This document shows, in pieces, positions 384-10,972 of a stretch of DNA of 21,439 nucleotides. Within the stretch, counting starts at the first letter, position 1; every line of letters begins with the position of its first letter. The position numbers and the translations under genes were made by a program. This stretch comes from a virus. The stretch spans positions 1-21,439 of IMG/VR virus record IMGVR_UViG_3300011114_000154. One strand, 5' to 3'. The notes below the pieces were generated by a model that searched no databases, was not told where the DNA came from, and saw nothing but the letters and a program-made list of their open reading frames with translations.

Positions 384-412
384 TTGCAGTCTCACGGCAA
401 AACAGGTATATT
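384..412 (+). promoter_or_regulatory. Candidate sigma70-like promoter for the HNH gene
   Basis: TTGCAG (384-389) and TATATT (407-412) are separated by exactly 17 bases on the plus strand. The -10 box matches TATAAT at 5 of 6 positions and the -35 box matches TTGACA at 3 of 6. The expected start of transcription falls at or next to the ATG at 420, and no Shine-Dalgarno sequence precedes that ATG, so the mRNA could be leaderless. This is prediction from pattern only. Confidence 0.35.
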
Positions 413-419
413 TTTCGCT

Positions 420-905
420 ATGGAACATGCATACCTCACATATAACCTATCCTACGACCAGAATACAGGGTATTTCACATGGTCGCAGCCGCGCTCCAAA
501 ATCAAAGTTGGAGATGTGGCGGGACACACCCACAAGAAGACTGGATATGTCTCCATAGAGATAGACGGAAAAATTTATGCGGCACATCGATTGGCTTGGT
601 TTTATGTAACAGGCAAAATGCCTGAATTGCAAATTGACCACATAAATAGAATAAAAAATGACAACCGTTTTGAAAATTTGAGAGAGGCATCCAACGGTCA
701 AAATAGAGCAAATACGAAATCTTCAAGCAAACACGGCTTGAAGGGGGTTTCTTACAAAAAATGGCTCAAAGAAAAGCCATGGGAGGCAAGAATTACTTTT
801 GAAAAAAAAGTAAGGTCATTGGGGTGTTTTTCAACAAAAGAGGAAGCCCACGAGGCGTATTGCAAGGAAGCAAAACGACTTCATGGTGATTTTTTTAATC
901 CTTAA
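420..905 (+). CDS. HNH homing endonuclease with C-terminal AP2-like domain
   Basis: A 161-residue protein. The N-terminal part (SYDQNTGYFTW, then HRLAWFYVTGKMPE near residues 56-69) leads into the HNH core QIDHINRIKNDNRFENLR at 71-88, followed by Asn residues near 92-98. Residues about 104-161 look like an AP2 DNA-binding domain (HGLKGVSYKKW, WEARITF, GCFSTKEEAHEAYCKEAKRLHG). Such proteins are free-standing homing endonucleases that cut DNA and spread their own gene. It is the only plus-strand gene here and is visibly A/T-richer than its neighbours, both signs of recent insertion. Its stop overlaps the stop of the converging gene by a few bases. ATG 420 is chosen over an in-frame TTG at 384 because relatives start just before the SYD-x-x-TG-x-FTW segment. 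Confidence 0.88.
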   Translation: MEHAYLTYNLSYDQNTGYFTWSQPRSKIKVGDVAGHTHKKTGYVSIEIDGKIYAAHRLAWFYVTGKMPELQIDHINRIKNDNRFENLREASNGQNRANTKSSSKHGLKGVSYKKWLKEKPWEARITFEKKVRSLGCFSTKEEAHEAYCKEAKRLHGDFFNP

Positions 906-4375: not shown

Positions 4376-5116
4376 TCAGCCTCGCGTTGGTGATGCGACA
4401 GGGGCGGGCGCTTGAGATGACCACGCCGCACCCTCGTACTTCTTCCGCGCCTCTTCAACCATTGCAGACTTGAGTAGGGTGCCGTACTGGCTTTCATAGC
4501 TCTGCGCCATCTGGGGATCGTCTGACTGCCTGCCAAAGTTGCGCTGATAGGCAGAGATGTAGATCATGGATGCCATGATCAGGAGGTCTGGCAGATACTG
4601 GCTGATAAATGTGGTTGGCACATCTTCTGATAGCGGCGCAGGTCGAACCGTACCCACCACTTCAACATAATAGTCAACATCTGGAACAGGCCCAACGAGA
4701 AATAACGTGTCGTTAAATGGGGCGAAGTATTTTGGCTGACCCCTATTTGCAGTCAATGCAGACCCAAAAACAGCATCCAAGAACTCTTTGGTCACTGGCA
4801 GGAGCGGTATGCGATTATTGGAGTTTGGGTCAGTTTGCCCAGCGGGGGTGATTAAGTTGATTTGCTCACTGACAACAAAGTACGATCCTCCAGCAAGGTT
4901 TTGGCTGAAAGACAGGTTCCTGTTTCCAGTTGTCAGCTTGTAATTGACCCCAGACAGGGATGCCGATGTAATCAAAAGGTCAAGGTCACGGTTGATGCGC
5001 AAAGTGGCGTAGTCGATCATTGAGGGAAGAATTGCCAAGAAGTTGACATCATCCTCCTCAACCACGGCCATCTGCGCGATCTGCGTCTTGTACGTTGCGT
5101 ATGTCAGTCCAACCAT
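4376..5116 (-). CDS. Head-tail adaptor protein (SU10-adaptor-like)
   Basis: 246 residues. The N-terminal segment TYATYKTQIAQMAVVEEDD, followed by FLAILPSMIDYATLRINRDLDL, is the helical signature of phage adaptor proteins that dock on the portal (SU10 adaptor-like type). The middle has beta strands, including NDTLFLVGPVPDVDYYVEVVG. The C-terminal part carries the helix QYLPDLLIMASMIYISAYQRN, then a charged helix and a disordered PAPVASPTRG tail. Adaptors form a ring under the portal and link it to the tail. The same layout of strand, PVPD turn, strand and helix is present in the protein at 9438-10118, so the two may be paralogues. A promoter-like site lies directly upstream and the gp10-like gene directly downstream. 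Confidence 0.72.
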   Translation of the reverse strand: MVGLTYATYKTQIAQMAVVEEDDVNFLAILPSMIDYATLRINRDLDLLITSASLSGVNYKLTTGNRNLSFSQNLAGGSYFVVSEQINLITPAGQTDPNSNNRIPLLPVTKEFLDAVFGSALTANRGQPKYFAPFNDTLFLVGPVPDVDYYVEVVGTVRPAPLSEDVPTTFISQYLPDLLIMASMIYISAYQRNFGRQSDDPQMAQSYESQYGTLLKSAMVEEARKKYEGAAWSSQAPAPVASPTRG

Positions 5117-6653: not shown

Positions 6654-8288
6654 CTACACAAATGTGCCAGTTGTTGCGCTGATCTTTTTGACTGTATAGT
6701 AAGACCCAGCCAATGGTGTTGCCGTACCCGCACTTTGGGTTAATTGCAGCTTGAAGCTTGTCGCGGCGTTGGTCTGAACTTGAGTGACAAACTGGAATGC
6801 ATGGTTAACGGCAGTTGTCAGCGATCCAGTTGCCGCAAAGGCAGCCGTTGTTGCGCCCTGCGATCCAGCAAATCCGCTTATTGGTGCGCCAGCGGCAATA
6901 CCAGTCACTGGAGATGCCAGATAAGTGCCTACGATGCGTGTGGGGGCGGATGATGCGGTCAAAGTCCAAGTCGCCGTTCCCGCAGTGGTTTTTGTCATCA
7001 CCGCGTAAATGTAGATTTCGTACACAGACGAGGCTTCAAGAGATATTGCCGAGGTTGCCCCAAAGAAATCACCAATGGTGGGGCCAAATGCAGTTACGTT
7101 TGCGGCAAGGTTAAATGTCTGCTCCCCGACGATAGCACCATTACCCGATGTGGCGTTGGCGGAAACCGCACCCGTGATCGTTGGGGCGGTTCCAAGGACA
7201 ACAGAGCCAGTTCCCGTAACAGACTGGAAATCAGTGAAACCAGCCTCCCAATCTGCGGCAGTGGTGAGAGTGGTGCCAATACAAGTCACCATCGCGCTCA
7301 GGCCAGCAATTACGGTTGTCACAAGGTTTCCGCCAGACGAGTTGACAGTGAGTGACCCAGTGGAGTTGTTTACGATGTGAAAAGACCAACCAGCCCCAAG
7401 GGTTGACGTGACGGGCAATGTAATTGTCTGCGTGGTCGAACCAGTGAACAGTTGGTACTGGCTGCTCGTGTTGGTCAAGACTGTTGTGCCAGCCGCCGTT
7501 GCGGTGGATGTGTAGCCCAAAAGAACTGCAGCAGCCGCTGGAGCGGTGGTTACGCCAGTGCCGCCATTGCCCAGTGGCAAAGTTCCAGAAACGTCTGCCG
7601 TGAGACTGACGGCGCTAAAAGTGGGAGCGCCAGATGCGTTCCCGTGGAGAACCTGAGTTGCCGTCCCAGCCGCCGTGGATGCCATTGCAGTGGTGGTGCT
7701 TCCGTAGATCAAGCCATACTGTGTGAGGGCGCTGCCCTGTCCAGTGCCGCCATCAGCCACAGCCAAGTCTGTGATACCCGTAATCGACCCGCCCGTAATG
7801 GCCACGCTGTTGGCGTTTTGGGTGGACATGGTTCCAAGTCCAGTGATGTCAGTGCTTGGGATGGTTGCGGACGCTGTGAGCGGTGTCGTGCCGCTGCCTT
7901 TGACGTACCCAGTCAGTGTTGATACCCCAGTGCCACCATCAGCCACCGCCAGATCGGTGATGCCAGTGATAGAGCCACCCGTAATCGCCACGGCACTTGC
8001 GTCCTGCGTGGACATCGTACCAAGGCCCGTGATGTCTGTATTTGGGATGGTTGCCGACCCCGTAAATGGGGTGGTTCCGCTGCCTTTGACGTAGCCAGTG
8101 ATGGTTGTGACACCCGTGCCGCCCACGCTGACTGAAAAAGGAAACGTTATGGGTGTGGTGATGCGGGCAGCCGCGATGACTTGAGCCAAGCTGATCTTTA
8201 CAGATGTGCCAGCTTGTACGCCTTCAAACAGTTCAGCCCCAGATAGGGAGGCAACGGCGGGAAGGTTCGGGATTTGTACGTTCGCCAT
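6654..8288 (-). CDS. Tail fibre / receptor-binding protein with 62-residue repeats
   Basis: 544 residues, rich in Gly, Thr, Ser and Ala, with no catalytic motif. The N-terminus (ANVQIPNLPAVASLSGAELFEGVQ, given as NLPAVASLSGAELFEGVQ) is typical of fibres that attach to the tail. Residues about 56-185 hold two tandem 62-residue units starting with GGTG (GYVKGSGTTP, SATIP-x-TDITGLGTMSTQ, VAITGGSITGITDLAVADGG) and a third GGTG start. The middle contains further GNGGTGVTT-type motifs seen in long fibres. The C-terminal 155 residues (from NLAANVTAFGPTIGDFF) look like a compact beta domain that may bind the receptor. It lies between a zinc-finger protein and the lysis cassette. The start shares a base with the upstream stop (TGATG). 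Confidence 0.8.
   Translation of the reverse strand: MANVQIPNLPAVASLSGAELFEGVQAGTSVKISLAQVIAAARITTPITFPFSVSVGGTGVTTITGYVKGSGTTPFTGSATIPNTDITGLGTMSTQDASAVAITGGSITGITDLAVADGGTGVSTLTGYVKGSGTTPLTASATIPSTDITGLGTMSTQNANSVAITGGSITGITDLAVADGGTGQGSALTQYGLIYGSTTTAMASTAAGTATQVLHGNASGAPTFSAVSLTADVSGTLPLGNGGTGVTTAPAAAAVLLGYTSTATAAGTTVLTNTSSQYQLFTGSTTQTITLPVTSTLGAGWSFHIVNNSTGSLTVNSSGGNLVTTVIAGLSAMVTCIGTTLTTAADWEAGFTDFQSVTGTGSVVLGTAPTITGAVSANATSGNGAIVGEQTFNLAANVTAFGPTIGDFFGATSAISLEASSVYEIYIYAVMTKTTAGTATWTLTASSAPTRIVGTYLASPVTGIAAGAPISGFAGSQGATTAAFAATGSLTTAVNHAFQFVTQVQTNAATSFKLQLTQSAGTATPLAGSYYTVKKISATTGTFV
7741..8112 (-). repeat. Two tandem 186-bp units inside the tail-fibre gene
   Basis: Units at 7741-7926 and 7927-8112 align end to end without gaps and stay in frame (62 codons each). 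They are close but not identical at DNA level, with most changes at third codon positions, so the duplication is not very recent. A third start of the unit follows at 8113 (cccgtgccgcc) and then diverges. Repeats of this kind lengthen fibre shafts. Confidence 0.85.
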
Positions 8289-8788
8289 CAGATCGGCCCT
8301 GTCTTTGGAACTTCAGTGTTACCATACGGCAAACCTGGGTCATTGTCACCTGGGGCATTGGGGTCAGTGCCAGGTCTTTCATTCAGGCTGCCATCCGCAA
8401 ATCCTGTCTGCTGGACAACGCGCTTCTTGTCGTTTTCGGTGATGCGGGTGTCGCCATCTGGCACCATGAGGCCAGTCTTGGCGTTCATGGTCGCGGGCAA
8501 GCTCGTCAGGCGATAATCAGTCTCGGCGCGCTCGAATTGCTCTGGGCGCGGGTTCAAGATCGGAATAGGGTCTGCGGGCAGCACGATGGCGCGAAGCTGC
8601 TGCTGTGGGTTATCCAAGCAGTGCCTGCACACCAAGATGCGCTTATTGATGATCGACGCGCCAGCCCAGTCATACTGCCAATTCAGATCGACGTGGTTAT
8701 AGCGGCCACCGCACCGATCACAGATTGCGTGTGCGGCGGGTGATACCCGTGACGTTCTTGCCTTACCTGATCTAGATGCGTATGCCAT
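8288..8788 (-). CDS. Conserved phage protein with four-Cys zinc-binding site
   Basis: 166 residues. Two Cys pairs, C23-x-x-C26 (ICDRCG) and C54-x-x-C57 (VCRHCLD), enclose a segment with HVDLNWQYDWAGASIINKR and very likely bind one zinc ion. A conserved-looking stretch (PQQQLRAIVLPADPIPILNPRP) follows, and the C-terminal third is Pro/Asp/Gly-rich and probably disordered. Proteins of this layout are common beside tail genes in phages and remain without an assigned function; the Cys pairs alone do not make it a nuclease. It starts with a TAATG overlap with the GIY-YIG gene upstream, and its stop overlaps the start of the fibre gene, so it is embedded in the operon. Confidence 0.78.
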   Translation of the reverse strand: MAYASRSGKARTSRVSPAAHAICDRCGGRYNHVDLNWQYDWAGASIINKRILVCRHCLDNPQQQLRAIVLPADPIPILNPRPEQFERAETDYRLTSLPATMNAKTGLMVPDGDTRITENDKKRVVQQTGFADGSLNERPGTDPNAPGDNDPGLPYGNTEVPKTGPI

Positions 8789-9441
8789 TACGACAAAGCC
8801 TTTTCTCGTTCGCGCCGCGCACGTTGAGACTCTCTCATTTTTGCCTTTGTGTCATCAGACATTTTTGGCCTTGGCTTTCCACGGGTCTTTGATCCATAGG
8901 TATTGCCAAGGTGTGCCTTGGATATTTTTTTACGGGCTTCCTCGGATACGGGATGACCCATAGCTGAAATAGACATCTTTGCCTTCGTTTCTAAAGATGC
9001 TTTTCTTCCCGCCCGCCCGCCAGAACACTTTGCCCTTACAGCATCATTATCCATGCCAATTTTGGTGGCAATGGAGTGCTTCTCTCTTGAATCAGGCGCA
9101 GACCAACGTTTTTTGGATGCAGCCCTCATTTTTTCTAATACGTCTTCAGGCGGGCTTTTCAAACCGTCACCGCCAGCAGTTTTGTTTGAAAGTTCAACGT
9201 TGCGTTCTTTCCAAAAAGCAATTCGCTCTATCTCCAAGCGCAATGCGTCATCCTCAGAAAGGCCAGATGCAACCATGCGTACCTCTACGCACATTCCAAG
9301 CTTCTTTAGCTTGTTCTTTATATTGCTGTGATGTTTGTTTCTGGTTCGATTTGGGTCAAACCTAGACGCACTACCCTTGCCCACATAAAACGGGAGGTCA
9401 AGATCGGGTCGCCAATGCTCATATACGTAAAACTTTTTCAT
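8788..9441 (-). CDS. GIY-YIG homing endonuclease with NUMOD3-like repeats (copy A)
   Basis: 217 residues. The catalytic GIY-YIG domain spans about residues 1-95: YVYEH (GIY strand), FYVGKG (YIG strand), RF and NKHH downstream, a helix with LEIERIAFW that supplies the likely catalytic Glu70 or Glu72, and LSNKTAGGDG. The rest is basic and holds NUMOD3-like DNA-binding elements (SLETKAKMS, SEEARKKISKAHLG, SDDTKAKMRES). Such enzymes cut DNA lacking their gene and spread by repair. It is free-standing and joined to both neighbours by overlapping stop/start codons (ATGA with the adaptor before it, TAATG with the zinc protein after it). Its sequence is visibly more A/T-rich than its neighbours. Confidence 0.9.
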   Translation of the reverse strand: MKKFYVYEHWRPDLDLPFYVGKGSASRFDPNRTRNKHHSNIKNKLKKLGMCVEVRMVASGLSEDDALRLEIERIAFWKERNVELSNKTAGGDGLKSPPEDVLEKMRAASKKRWSAPDSREKHSIATKIGMDNDAVRAKCSGGRAGRKASLETKAKMSISAMGHPVSEEARKKISKAHLGNTYGSKTRGKPRPKMSDDTKAKMRESQRARREREKALS

Positions 9442-10118
9442 CTAAAATACGACCCCAACATTGGTGAAATGTACGTGCCGACATTCTCCACGTTCTGGTT
9501 GGATGCGATGGCATAGCTCTCATCGGCCTGAGCCTTGAGTGCCACGGCCATTTGCGGGTTCCAGATGCGCGCCAGTCGGTATGACAGTCCGTCAGCAAAG
9601 CACTCCAGCCACAAATAGGGAATTTCGACATTTTCGTTATTTTGGAGATTTGAGTCTTGGATTTGGCGCACACGGTAATACTTCAGGATCGTGGATGACG
9701 TGCCATCAGGAACGGGCCACAGCGTGATTGTGGGCGAGATGAGGCGGTCATACCAGAAGGACGTGACGAAGCCCTTCTGCTCCTTGTTTGGGTACGATGC
9801 GTACTCTGTGCGGCTGATTGGCATGATGACACGGTCAATGCCCTGATCTGTCGTGGTATATGCGTCGAGGATCATGACTGTGTTTGGCGCTACGGCGTAG
9901 GTGGTCTGGCCCTCAATCAGTGGCGTGGTGATCAGGTCAACCGCCCAAAGGTTTACGCCCTGATTTGAAAATCTTGAAAGCATCATGTTGGCAGCCATTC
10001 TTGCTGTCTCCATGTGTTCTTGCAAAATAGAAGCTGGACGTATGCCTATGTTTTGATAAGCATAGAGAACTATTTCTCCCAATCCTGGATTAAACGTGTA
10101 TGCACCACTAGTGGTCAT
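9438..10118 (-). CDS. Head-tail adaptor / P22 gp4-like tail accessory protein
   Basis: 226 residues. The N-terminal helical part (GEIVLYAYQNIGIRPASILQ, then HMETARMAANMMLSRFSNQGVNLW) is the pattern of P22 gp4-type proteins, which bind below the portal and start head closure. The central part is beta-rich (GQTTYAVAPNTVMILDAY, DRLISPTITLWPVPDG, STILKYYRVRQIQD) and the C-terminal part is helical (IPYLWLECFADGLSYRLARIW, then MAVALKAQADESYAIA). AGGAGG lies about six bases before the start. The gene is flanked on both sides by related GIY-YIG endonuclease genes, and its own stop and start overlap them. It follows the capsid module in the P22-like order of coat, then gp4. Confidence 0.72.
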   Translation of the reverse strand: MTTSGAYTFNPGLGEIVLYAYQNIGIRPASILQEHMETARMAANMMLSRFSNQGVNLWAVDLITTPLIEGQTTYAVAPNTVMILDAYTTTDQGIDRVIMPISRTEYASYPNKEQKGFVTSFWYDRLISPTITLWPVPDGTSSTILKYYRVRQIQDSNLQNNENVEIPYLWLECFADGLSYRLARIWNPQMAVALKAQADESYAIASNQNVENVGTYISPMLGSYFR

Positions 10119-10717
10119 AGCTCCCTCCTGGTATTCTCCGCAACCCTGCGCTTCTCACTCCACGGTTTACCTTTATTGGCAGCGCTCAGAGAAGCCCTCG
10201 TCTCATCGCTTACAATCTTTCCTGTGTGTGCGGCTGAAATTTTAGCTTTATGCTCTGCCGAAAGCGGATTACCACGGCGTTTTTCAGCACCCATCTCTAT
10301 TGCCTCTCGCGGCTGTTTGCGGCCAATTAGGGGGGCAATGCGCCTAGCTACAACATCTGGTTTTTGCTTCTTCCCAAGTTTGGCAGCGGACATTTTGGCC
10401 TTAGCTTCATCCGACATCTTCAAGCCGCTTACACCATCTCCGCCATTAGTGCGATTTGCAAGATCAATGCCAGCCTCACGCCAAAAAGCAATACGTTCAA
10501 CCTCAATCGCAAATGCCTCATCCTCAGTCAAGCCTGTCGCAACCATGCGCACTTCCATGCCGCTACCTTCGCGGGATAGTTTACCCATAATTGCCCGATG
10601 ATGAGCATTACGGTCACGCATCTTGTATGCGCGAATGCCCTTACCCTTACCAACGTAAAAACATTCATCACGGTCAAGCCGCCAGTGTTCGTACACATAG
10701 AAAACGCTGGTGGTCAT
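10115..10717 (-). CDS. GIY-YIG homing endonuclease with NUMOD3-like repeats (copy B)
   Basis: 200 residues. The N-terminal 95 residues match copy A closely by eye: FYVYEHWR, FYVGKG, NAHH, EVRMVATGL, ED-x-A, the helix with IEVERIAFW carrying the likely catalytic Glu72, and NRTNGGDG. Repeats of NUMOD3 type follow (SDEAKAKMSAAKLGK, SAEHKAKISAAHTGK, SDETRASLSAANKGK). The last codons (N-T-R-R-E-L) double as the ribosome-binding site of the adaptor gene, and its stop is inside the adaptor start (ATGA). Its first four residues, MTTS, are the same as those of the adaptor. These points suggest that the element inserted exactly at the adaptor start. Function as in copy A. Confidence 0.9.
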   Translation of the reverse strand: MTTSVFYVYEHWRLDRDECFYVGKGKGIRAYKMRDRNAHHRAIMGKLSREGSGMEVRMVATGLTEDEAFAIEVERIAFWREAGIDLANRTNGGDGVSGLKMSDEAKAKMSAAKLGKKQKPDVVARRIAPLIGRKQPREAIEMGAEKRRGNPLSAEHKAKISAAHTGKIVSDETRASLSAANKGKPWSEKRRVAENTRREL

Positions 10718-10720
10718 TTT

Positions 10721-10972
10721 TTAACACTTCCATGCTTTCAGGGACAGGGCTTTGCGAGTTGGCTTGCCCTTCTCGTCCGTCATCGGGCCTTCCATGCCAG
10801 ACATCCTGGCGCAGAATGACTTCTTGCGCCCAGCATCCTTTTCCGTCTTTGGATTTGGCGCTGGTGGCTTCAGGTTCATGCCCTGAGCCTTTGCTGATGC
10901 TCGGCCCTTTGCATTGAGACCGCCAGCTGGATTTTTTCCCTCAGCCCTCTGCCAAGCAGGTGTCTTTGCCAT
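10721..10972 (-). CDS. Small basic phage protein (DUF6321-like)
   Basis: 83 residues, strongly basic. The sequence begins KTPAWQRAEGKNPAGGLNAKGR, here split as KTPAWQRAEGKNPAGG and LNAKGRASAKAQG, and continues with LKPPAPNPKT, KKSFCARMSGMEGPM and RKALSLKAWKC. This pattern is that of the DUF6321 type found in many aquatic phages, where it occurs among structural genes and has no proven role. The high Lys/Arg/Gly content and two Cys residues suggest binding to nucleic acid, which is inference. Its start overlaps the stop of the upstream gene (TAATG) and it lies directly before GIY-YIG copy B. Confidence 0.75.
   Translation of the reverse strand: MAKTPAWQRAEGKNPAGGLNAKGRASAKAQGMNLKPPAPNPKTEKDAGRKKSFCARMSGMEGPMTDEKGKPTRKALSLKAWKC

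Follow-up and report, generated by a model that had tools for sequence, protein, structure and literature searches.

How can a nuclease gene sit harmlessly on an essential gene that is packed against its neighbours without spacers? The question is raised by a 21,439-base viral metagenome fragment (IMG/VR record IMGVR_UViG_3300011114_000154), referred to here as the window. A structural-gene operon on its minus strand holds a head-tail adaptor gene with one candidate homing endonuclease gene (HEG) on either side, GIY1 upstream and GIY2 downstream. The answer suggested by the comparisons below is that the upstream nuclease took the start of the adaptor gene and returned a substitute 5′ end together with a ribosome site. 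The adaptor is assumed to be essential, judging from its family.

Layout of the locus

The coordinates and ATGA overlaps originally predicted for GIY1, the adaptor gene and GIY2 all hold on the minus strand. Related loci carry L numbers. The features of the locus are as follows:

10721–10972, minus strand: DUF6321 gene (PF19846, E=2.3e-25), native neighbour upstream of the adaptor
10727–10731, minus strand: native ribosome site GGAAG, within the 3′ end of the DUF6321 gene, now serving GIY1
10705–10717, minus strand: native start of the adaptor, ATGACCACCAGCG, captured by GIY1 as its first codons; HEG-free L005 and L007 have the identical adaptor start
10115–10717, minus strand: GIY1, upstream GIY-YIG/NUMOD3 nuclease gene, 200 aa (NUMOD3 match; invariant GIY-YIG-type residues)
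10124–10129, minus strand: new adaptor ribosome-binding site AGGAGG, encoded in the last GIY1 codons, as had been predicted
9438–10118, minus strand: SU10-type head-tail adaptor gene (PF24175, E=1.9e-9; phrog_12985, E=6e-20; phrog_399)
9948–10118, minus strand: imported, putatively co-converted adaptor 5′ tract, about nt 1–171, including the second MTTS copy (AU tests, changepoint at nt 171, synonymous difference)
9450–9452, minus strand: Ser codon TCG preceding the adaptor's terminal YFR (found in six of six checked adaptor ends with a GIY2-clade enzyme)
8788–9441, minus strand: GIY2, downstream GIY-YIG/NUMOD3 nuclease gene, 217 aa (NUMOD3 match; junctions compared with empty relatives)
8791–9440, minus strand: inserted GIY2 DNA, between the last adaptor codon and the native TAATG
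8288–8788, minus strand: native downstream neighbour, 166 aa, with no assigned function, starting on TAATG and lying directly after the adaptor in HEG-free relatives

The end of GIY1 and the start of the adaptor have the ATGA at 10115–10118 in common, and the end of the adaptor and the start of GIY2 the ATGA at 9438–9441. GIY2 and the next gene (8288–8788) overlap by one base (TAATG). GIY1 ends in ...AATACCAGGAGGGAGCTATGA, so that AGGAGG belongs to GIY1 codons and precedes the adaptor ATG by 5 nt. Both GIY1 (ATGACCACCAGC) and the adaptor (ATGACCACTAGT) open with MTTS.

Two further genes of the window are of note. An HNH endonuclease gene with an AP2-like tail lies on the opposite strand at 384–905 (plus strand; HNH_3, E=1e-13; phrog_99, E=2e-60) and is a possible third homing endonuclease of the window. 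A second SU10-type adaptor gene of the same operon is found at 4376–5116 (minus strand; PF24175, E=8.4e-15), and its homologues in L083, L084, L087, L159–L162, L185 and L189 have relatives of GIY1 and GIY2 beside them.

Assignment of the adaptor and the nucleases

The adaptor scored 38.7 bits against PF24175 (SU10 adaptor; curated cut-off of 27), and this match assigns it to that Pfam family. A sequence search of the PDB with the adaptor gave no match at E≤1 and no relative of solved structure, and a search of genome contigs gave no bacterial or prophage relatives. The original label of a P22 gp4-like gene is therefore not borne out by these sequence searches.

No GIY-YIG Pfam model scored above its cut-off for GIY1 or GIY2 individually. 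Both carry NUMOD3 (E=3e-12 for GIY1 and 3.7e-4 for GIY2) as a modular DNA-binding tail, and tails of NUMOD1 type and I-TevI type occur among their relatives. Across 23 family members, the LEM-3_GIY-YIG model was matched by 10 (best E of 7.8e-6) and the I-TevI DNA-binding model by four. The conserved Tyr, Tyr, Arg, Glu and Asn of a GIY-YIG catalytic domain are present at the family level, where the invariant residues are Y7, Y9, Y21, R29, E72 and N88 in GIY1 numbering. We take their spacing to resemble that of GIY-YIG nucleases such as I-TevI, and the roles of Y7/Y9, Y21, R29, E72 and N88 are presumed to be those of the I-TevI residues. When an AlphaFold model of GIY1 (mean pLDDT of 78.8) was compared with the PDB, the top folds were GIY-YIG nucleases (PD-T4-3 and T4 EndoII) with weak E-values of ≥0.057. 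Family matches, invariant residues and this weak fold match together suggest the GIY-YIG assignment, which is weak for the two window proteins taken by themselves.

An intron-encoded homing endonuclease was also considered. It was rejected because an Rfam scan of the window at gathering thresholds gave no match and no intron family, and because the reading frames on either side of the genes are complete, with no DNA in between. GIY1 and GIY2 are predicted to be free-standing HEGs of one GIY-YIG family.

Empty and occupied sites

The search with the adaptor alone returned 76 loci. Neither nuclease is present in L003–L008 and L012, the adaptors of which are 87–98% identical to that of the window. 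L002 has both nucleases, L009 and L014 have GIY2 only, and L015 and L017 have GIY1 only; GIY1 is not present in L003–L014. Each nuclease is thus sporadically present, with intact empty sites in close relatives. The gap between the adaptor and its next gene is −13 to +11 nt in HEG-free loci vs. 553–966 nt in loci with an insertion. L002 is the one double-occupied locus among those of the adaptor search, which by an informal estimate is about the expectation under independent occupancy.

Some of these loci have peculiarities of their own. L012 and L013 are the same adaptor locus found twice in opposite orientation on one 90.6 kb contig (IMGVR_UViG_3300010965_000005), which looks like an assembly artefact. 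Compared with other relatives, L009 is ~590 nt longer (1097–1683) from the U102 homologue to the DUF6321 gene, possibly through another insertion. After position 5172 of L004, the tail-fibre-like gene lies ~2.3 kb further downstream than in close relatives, which suggests an insertion after the 166-aa gene.

The empty relatives L003–L008 carry the upstream sequence aagcatggaagtgttaaaaaATGACCACCAGCGGCACATAC and the same DUF6321–adaptor junction as the window, aagcatggaagtgttaaaaaATGACCACCAG. In the window, the upstream junction reads aagcatggaagtgttaaaaaATGACCACCAGCG followed by TTTTCTATG and then continues into GIY1. At the empty site, the native adaptor start has its own ribosome site (GGAAG...ATGACCACCAG), as was expected of relatives without the nucleases. 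The present adaptor restarts at ATGACCACTAGTGGTGCATAC, after the AGGAGG encoded within GIY1. When empty and window junctions are compared, the first 13 nt of GIY1 (MTTS) are the adaptor's own start, behind the adaptor's own ribosome site. In another pair, the 30 nt before the ATG are identical between L133 (occupied) and L085 (upstream site empty), and in L133 the nuclease is fused at that ATG.

Exact insertion next to the adaptor with a takeover of its translation signals had been predicted, and the empty and occupied sites support this strongly. The direction of the takeover is more specific than had been proposed. From the junctions, it is strongly supported that the native ribosome site and start codon went to GIY1, and that the adaptor now begins at a second copy of its start, behind a new ribosome site.

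Start codons in related phages

At least 484 relatives came out of the search for the nuclease family, and the 80 best loci, with 82 nuclease genes, were examined. Of these genes, 20 separate an adaptor from its next gene, 18 immediately precede an adaptor and 13 are neighbours of a second SU10-type adaptor (homologous to window 4376–5116); the remainder are at other structural genes. The nucleases upstream of adaptors begin with MATSGTY, MATSGTF, MATSNL, MTTSV and similar residues, and the adaptors begin with MATSGTYxFNP. The upstream nuclease of L099, a member of a more distant GIY group, also begins with MTSSGTY. In 12 of 14 upstream cases, the first codons of the nuclease were closer (median) to HEG-free adaptor starts than to the restart of its own adaptor. 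When nuclease prefixes were compared with the starts of the next genes, 55 residues were identical; in 20,000 shuffles, this count averaged 20.6 and never exceeded 41. A motif resembling a ribosome site was found inside the nuclease before the adaptor in all 16 of 16 upstream cases, being weak in L099 and at long spacing in L133.

The shared MTTS, itself confirmed, is more than chance, since the empty sites explain it and it recurs in other phages. Could it nevertheless be convergent, or the usual start of the enzyme family, with no start capture at all? Only four codons are shared in the window, and the upstream enzymes of L088 and L133 are without a clear match to the adaptor start. However, downstream enzymes of the same family start differently, with MKK, MTK, MN or MF, and the codons of the displaced gene can be recognized at the DNA level, as in L082, where 21 of 21 nt of the upstream nuclease start are identical to HEG-free L016. 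Moreover, enzymes before other genes start with the codons of those genes: before a tail-fibre-like gene they begin with MANV (L082) or MATNIQ (L146) vs. native MANVQIPNLP or MANIQIPNLP, and before another structural gene in L174 with MGGG vs. native MGGGGK. We consider a convergent or usual family start highly improbable and retain start capture. Most other nucleases before adaptors, and some before other structural genes, begin with the first codons of the gene they displaced. The MANV enzyme (4704–5312 of L082) is the second nuclease of that phage.

An imported adaptor 5′ tract

Compared with the adaptor of HEG-free L004, the window adaptor shows 93% identity beyond about nt 171 and 73% before it. 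The synonymous difference between the two is 0.82 within this tract against 0.25 for the remaining adaptor, with a fitted changepoint at nt 171. In a tree of nt 37–168, the window, L002 and L003 group with L009, L014, L015 and L017 (support 100/100); in a tree of nt 181–678, the window groups with L003–L007. Each partition rejects the grouping of the other (p-AU of 2e-4 and 6e-7). Judged by these alignments and trees, the first ~170 nt of the adaptor are imported.

A like tract was found in four of four upstream-occupied adaptors having a close HEG-free relative (>90% identity in the other three, which form independent pairs). Its boundary is at nt 176 in L082/L016 and at nt 219 in L133/L085; in L137/L086, dense differences extend to about nt 177 and the fitted changepoint is 352. 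HEG-free adaptor pairs as a group were without such a pattern (Mann-Whitney p=2.4e-4, with sequences that are not independent). Several upstream cases without a close HEG-free relative had no clear tract. The tract matches what co-conversion from a cut in the 5′ part of the adaptor would leave.

The imported type of tract is also found in HEG-free L003, L009, L014 and L016, so the tract alone does not prove a transfer driven by GIY1. In L003, it spans nt 55–175, and nt 1–54 are of the native type. These phages could have lost GIY1, could never have had it or could have received the tract otherwise, e.g. by ordinary recombination. Their existence, and the fact that homing is deduced here from sequence, would suit a reading in which the nucleases are passive passengers: ordinary phage recombination put them at gene boundaries, and the enzymes no longer home. 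Against this, dN/dS is 0.05 for GIY1 (vs. L015) and 0.10 for GIY2 (vs. L009), values that speak for strong purifying selection on both genes, and the invariant catalytic-type residues are kept. Furthermore, in the pairs tested, the imported tract is in every case adjacent to the nuclease and extends to nt ~150–220. We regard the passenger reading as unlikely and prefer enzymes that home.

The downstream junction

The empty site downstream of the adaptor reads ...TATTTTAGATAATGGCATACGC. In the window, the sequence is ...TATTTTAGA, then the insert TGAAAAAG...GCTTTGTCG, then TAATGGCATACGC. The insert comprises 650 nt with no spare base. With GIY2 in place, the adaptor stop becomes TGA and the GIY2 start uses the last adaptor A, and the native TAATG becomes the stop of GIY2 and the start of the next gene.

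The codon before the terminal YFR encodes Ser in the adaptor ends with a GIY2-clade enzyme vs. Gly in downstream-empty loci except L004. This Ser codon, seen in few independent lineages, is a possible co-converted marker. No clear long co-conversion tract was found for GIY2; there is only this marker and a short stretch in the next gene.

An HNH-like gene, not of the GIY-YIG type, lies at the same adaptor/next-gene junction in a more distant phage (4690–5244 of L064). This site attracts more than one nuclease family.

Origin of the two nucleases

The close match predicted for the N-terminal halves of the two nucleases was found, with 57% identity over the ~91 aa of the catalytic domain. The original prediction also offered the duplication of one ancestral element; in a local form of this reading, one element inserted once beside the adaptor would have given rise to both nucleases. 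The two are indeed of the same family (43% identity over 188 aa, E=2e-42) and lie on both sides of one gene, and the AU test against their sisterhood was borderline (p=0.065) and did not fall below 0.05. The similarity ranks point the other way: GIY1 has 97% identity to the L015 enzyme in the catalytic domain vs. 57% to GIY2, and GIY2 ranks only about 98th among the relatives of GIY1 by catalytic-domain similarity. The closest relatives of GIY1 are the upstream enzymes of L015, L017 and L082 and the downstream enzymes of L010 and L011. GIY2 belongs to a separate clade, the members of which were found only downstream of adaptors, and those adaptors are 68–100% identical. Phages with one nuclease only also exist (L009, L014, L015 and L017). 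Local duplication was rejected on the similarity ranks and the tree, with the AU test alone being borderline, and we hold it to be very unlikely. GIY1 and GIY2 arriving separately at the two ends of the adaptor is instead part of an overall explanation that we consider quite probable as a whole. One enzyme of the GIY2 clade occurs in an annotated phage record (MW202675.1), where it is named 'intron associated endonuclease' beside 'tail adaptor'.

The upstream enzyme of L133 and the downstream enzyme of L085 share 284 nt at 95.8% identity, after which there is no similarity. GIY1 and the downstream enzyme of L010 diverge at the same point. As far as these alignments tell, upstream and downstream enzymes that differ in their DNA-binding tails exchange catalytic domains.

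Proposed mechanism

The explanation that we favour with good confidence combines separately arrived HEGs, capture of the adaptor start, a restored and diverged 5′ end, and homing. In a co-infecting phage that lacks it, either enzyme would cut in the adaptor region; through repair from the HEG-bearing genome, the nuclease would then be copied in along with neighbouring adaptor DNA. GIY1 sits a few codons inside the original adaptor gene and uses for itself the ribosome site, start codon and opening codons native to that gene. The adaptor would be restored by a second, diverged version of its first ~170 nt, brought in with the nuclease, and would be translated from the new ribosome site at the end of GIY1 and through the ATGA stop/start overlap. 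With GIY2 between the last adaptor codon and the native TAATG, translation would pass from the adaptor to GIY2 and on to the next gene. With the diverged 5′ end, the adaptor would stay intact, could not be cut and could not expel the nuclease by recombination. Where upstream genes differ (L015, L017 and L082), the captured start codons may act as a short homology arm.

We infer that the nuclease and the diverged adaptor 5′ end form a cassette that homes into the adaptor and restores it. More tentatively, this may be a home-and-rescue cassette of natural origin. The nuclease would home into an essential gene at its 5′ end, start its own translation on the start codons of its victim, which might double as a short homology arm, and bring along a replacement 5′ end that is diverged, uncuttable and non-recombining; the enzyme family would use this strategy generally, across several structural genes. 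We find this wider reading plausible but stop a little short of favouring it.

If the start is taken and a 5′ end is returned, the nuclease should be hard to delete, and the location of the cut is predicted. Nuclease domains are, moreover, exchanged between the two sides of one target gene. With matched phages that carry or lack the HEG, the cleavage site, immunity and rescue can be tested directly. In unannotated phage genomes, the start-codon signature could help to locate insertion sites and the genes displaced there.

Comparison with known systems

In the excerpted account of phage T4 used here (PMC2988022), seg and mob are free-standing genes of GIY-YIG or HNH type that neighbour essential phage genes, and many HEGs are promoterless cassettes on the message of the host gene. 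The mobE gene starts on UAAUGA with nrdA, host-gene promoters embedded in a HEG favour HEG retention, and homing is accompanied by co-conversion of flanking DNA. The window resembles seg and mob in having free-standing nuclease genes beside an essential phage gene with overlapping start and stop codons. Unlike seg and mob as described in that excerpt, GIY1 uses the ribosome site, start and first codons of a target that itself restarts on a diverged second 5′ end, with a ribosome site as the embedded signal.

In the HEG islands of ICP1 and other phages, HEGs bracket essential genes, different enzymes occupy the same positions in related phages, and domains are shuffled (PMC10448857). The same was seen here: the adaptor is bracketed by nucleases in the window/L002, L099 and L139, the same positions hold different enzymes, and domains are shuffled. 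In contrast to those islands, that of the window holds one gene and no intergenic DNA at all, and the catalytic domain, which has a sharp border, is passed between upstream and downstream enzymes. The cargo is not far more conserved than the rest of the genome; between the window and L014, L015 and L017, only the adaptor 5′ tract is conserved.

Like I-TevI, the enzymes combine an N-terminal catalytic domain with a modular tail, and four of the 23 relatives match its DNA-binding model as given above. I-TevI, however, is intron-encoded, whereas the window holds no intron family.

Free-standing phage homing endonucleases are known. New here, and in our assessment real and well supported by the sequence comparisons, is the capture of a start codon combined with a diverged replacement 5′ end, of which a literature search of partial coverage returned no description. 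The arrangement works like the engineered home-and-rescue gene drives (PMC7968924), in which a nuclease in an essential gene is paired with a sequence-changed copy of the displaced part. Those, however, are engineered CRISPR drives in flies with no relation by descent, and the likeness is one of working only.
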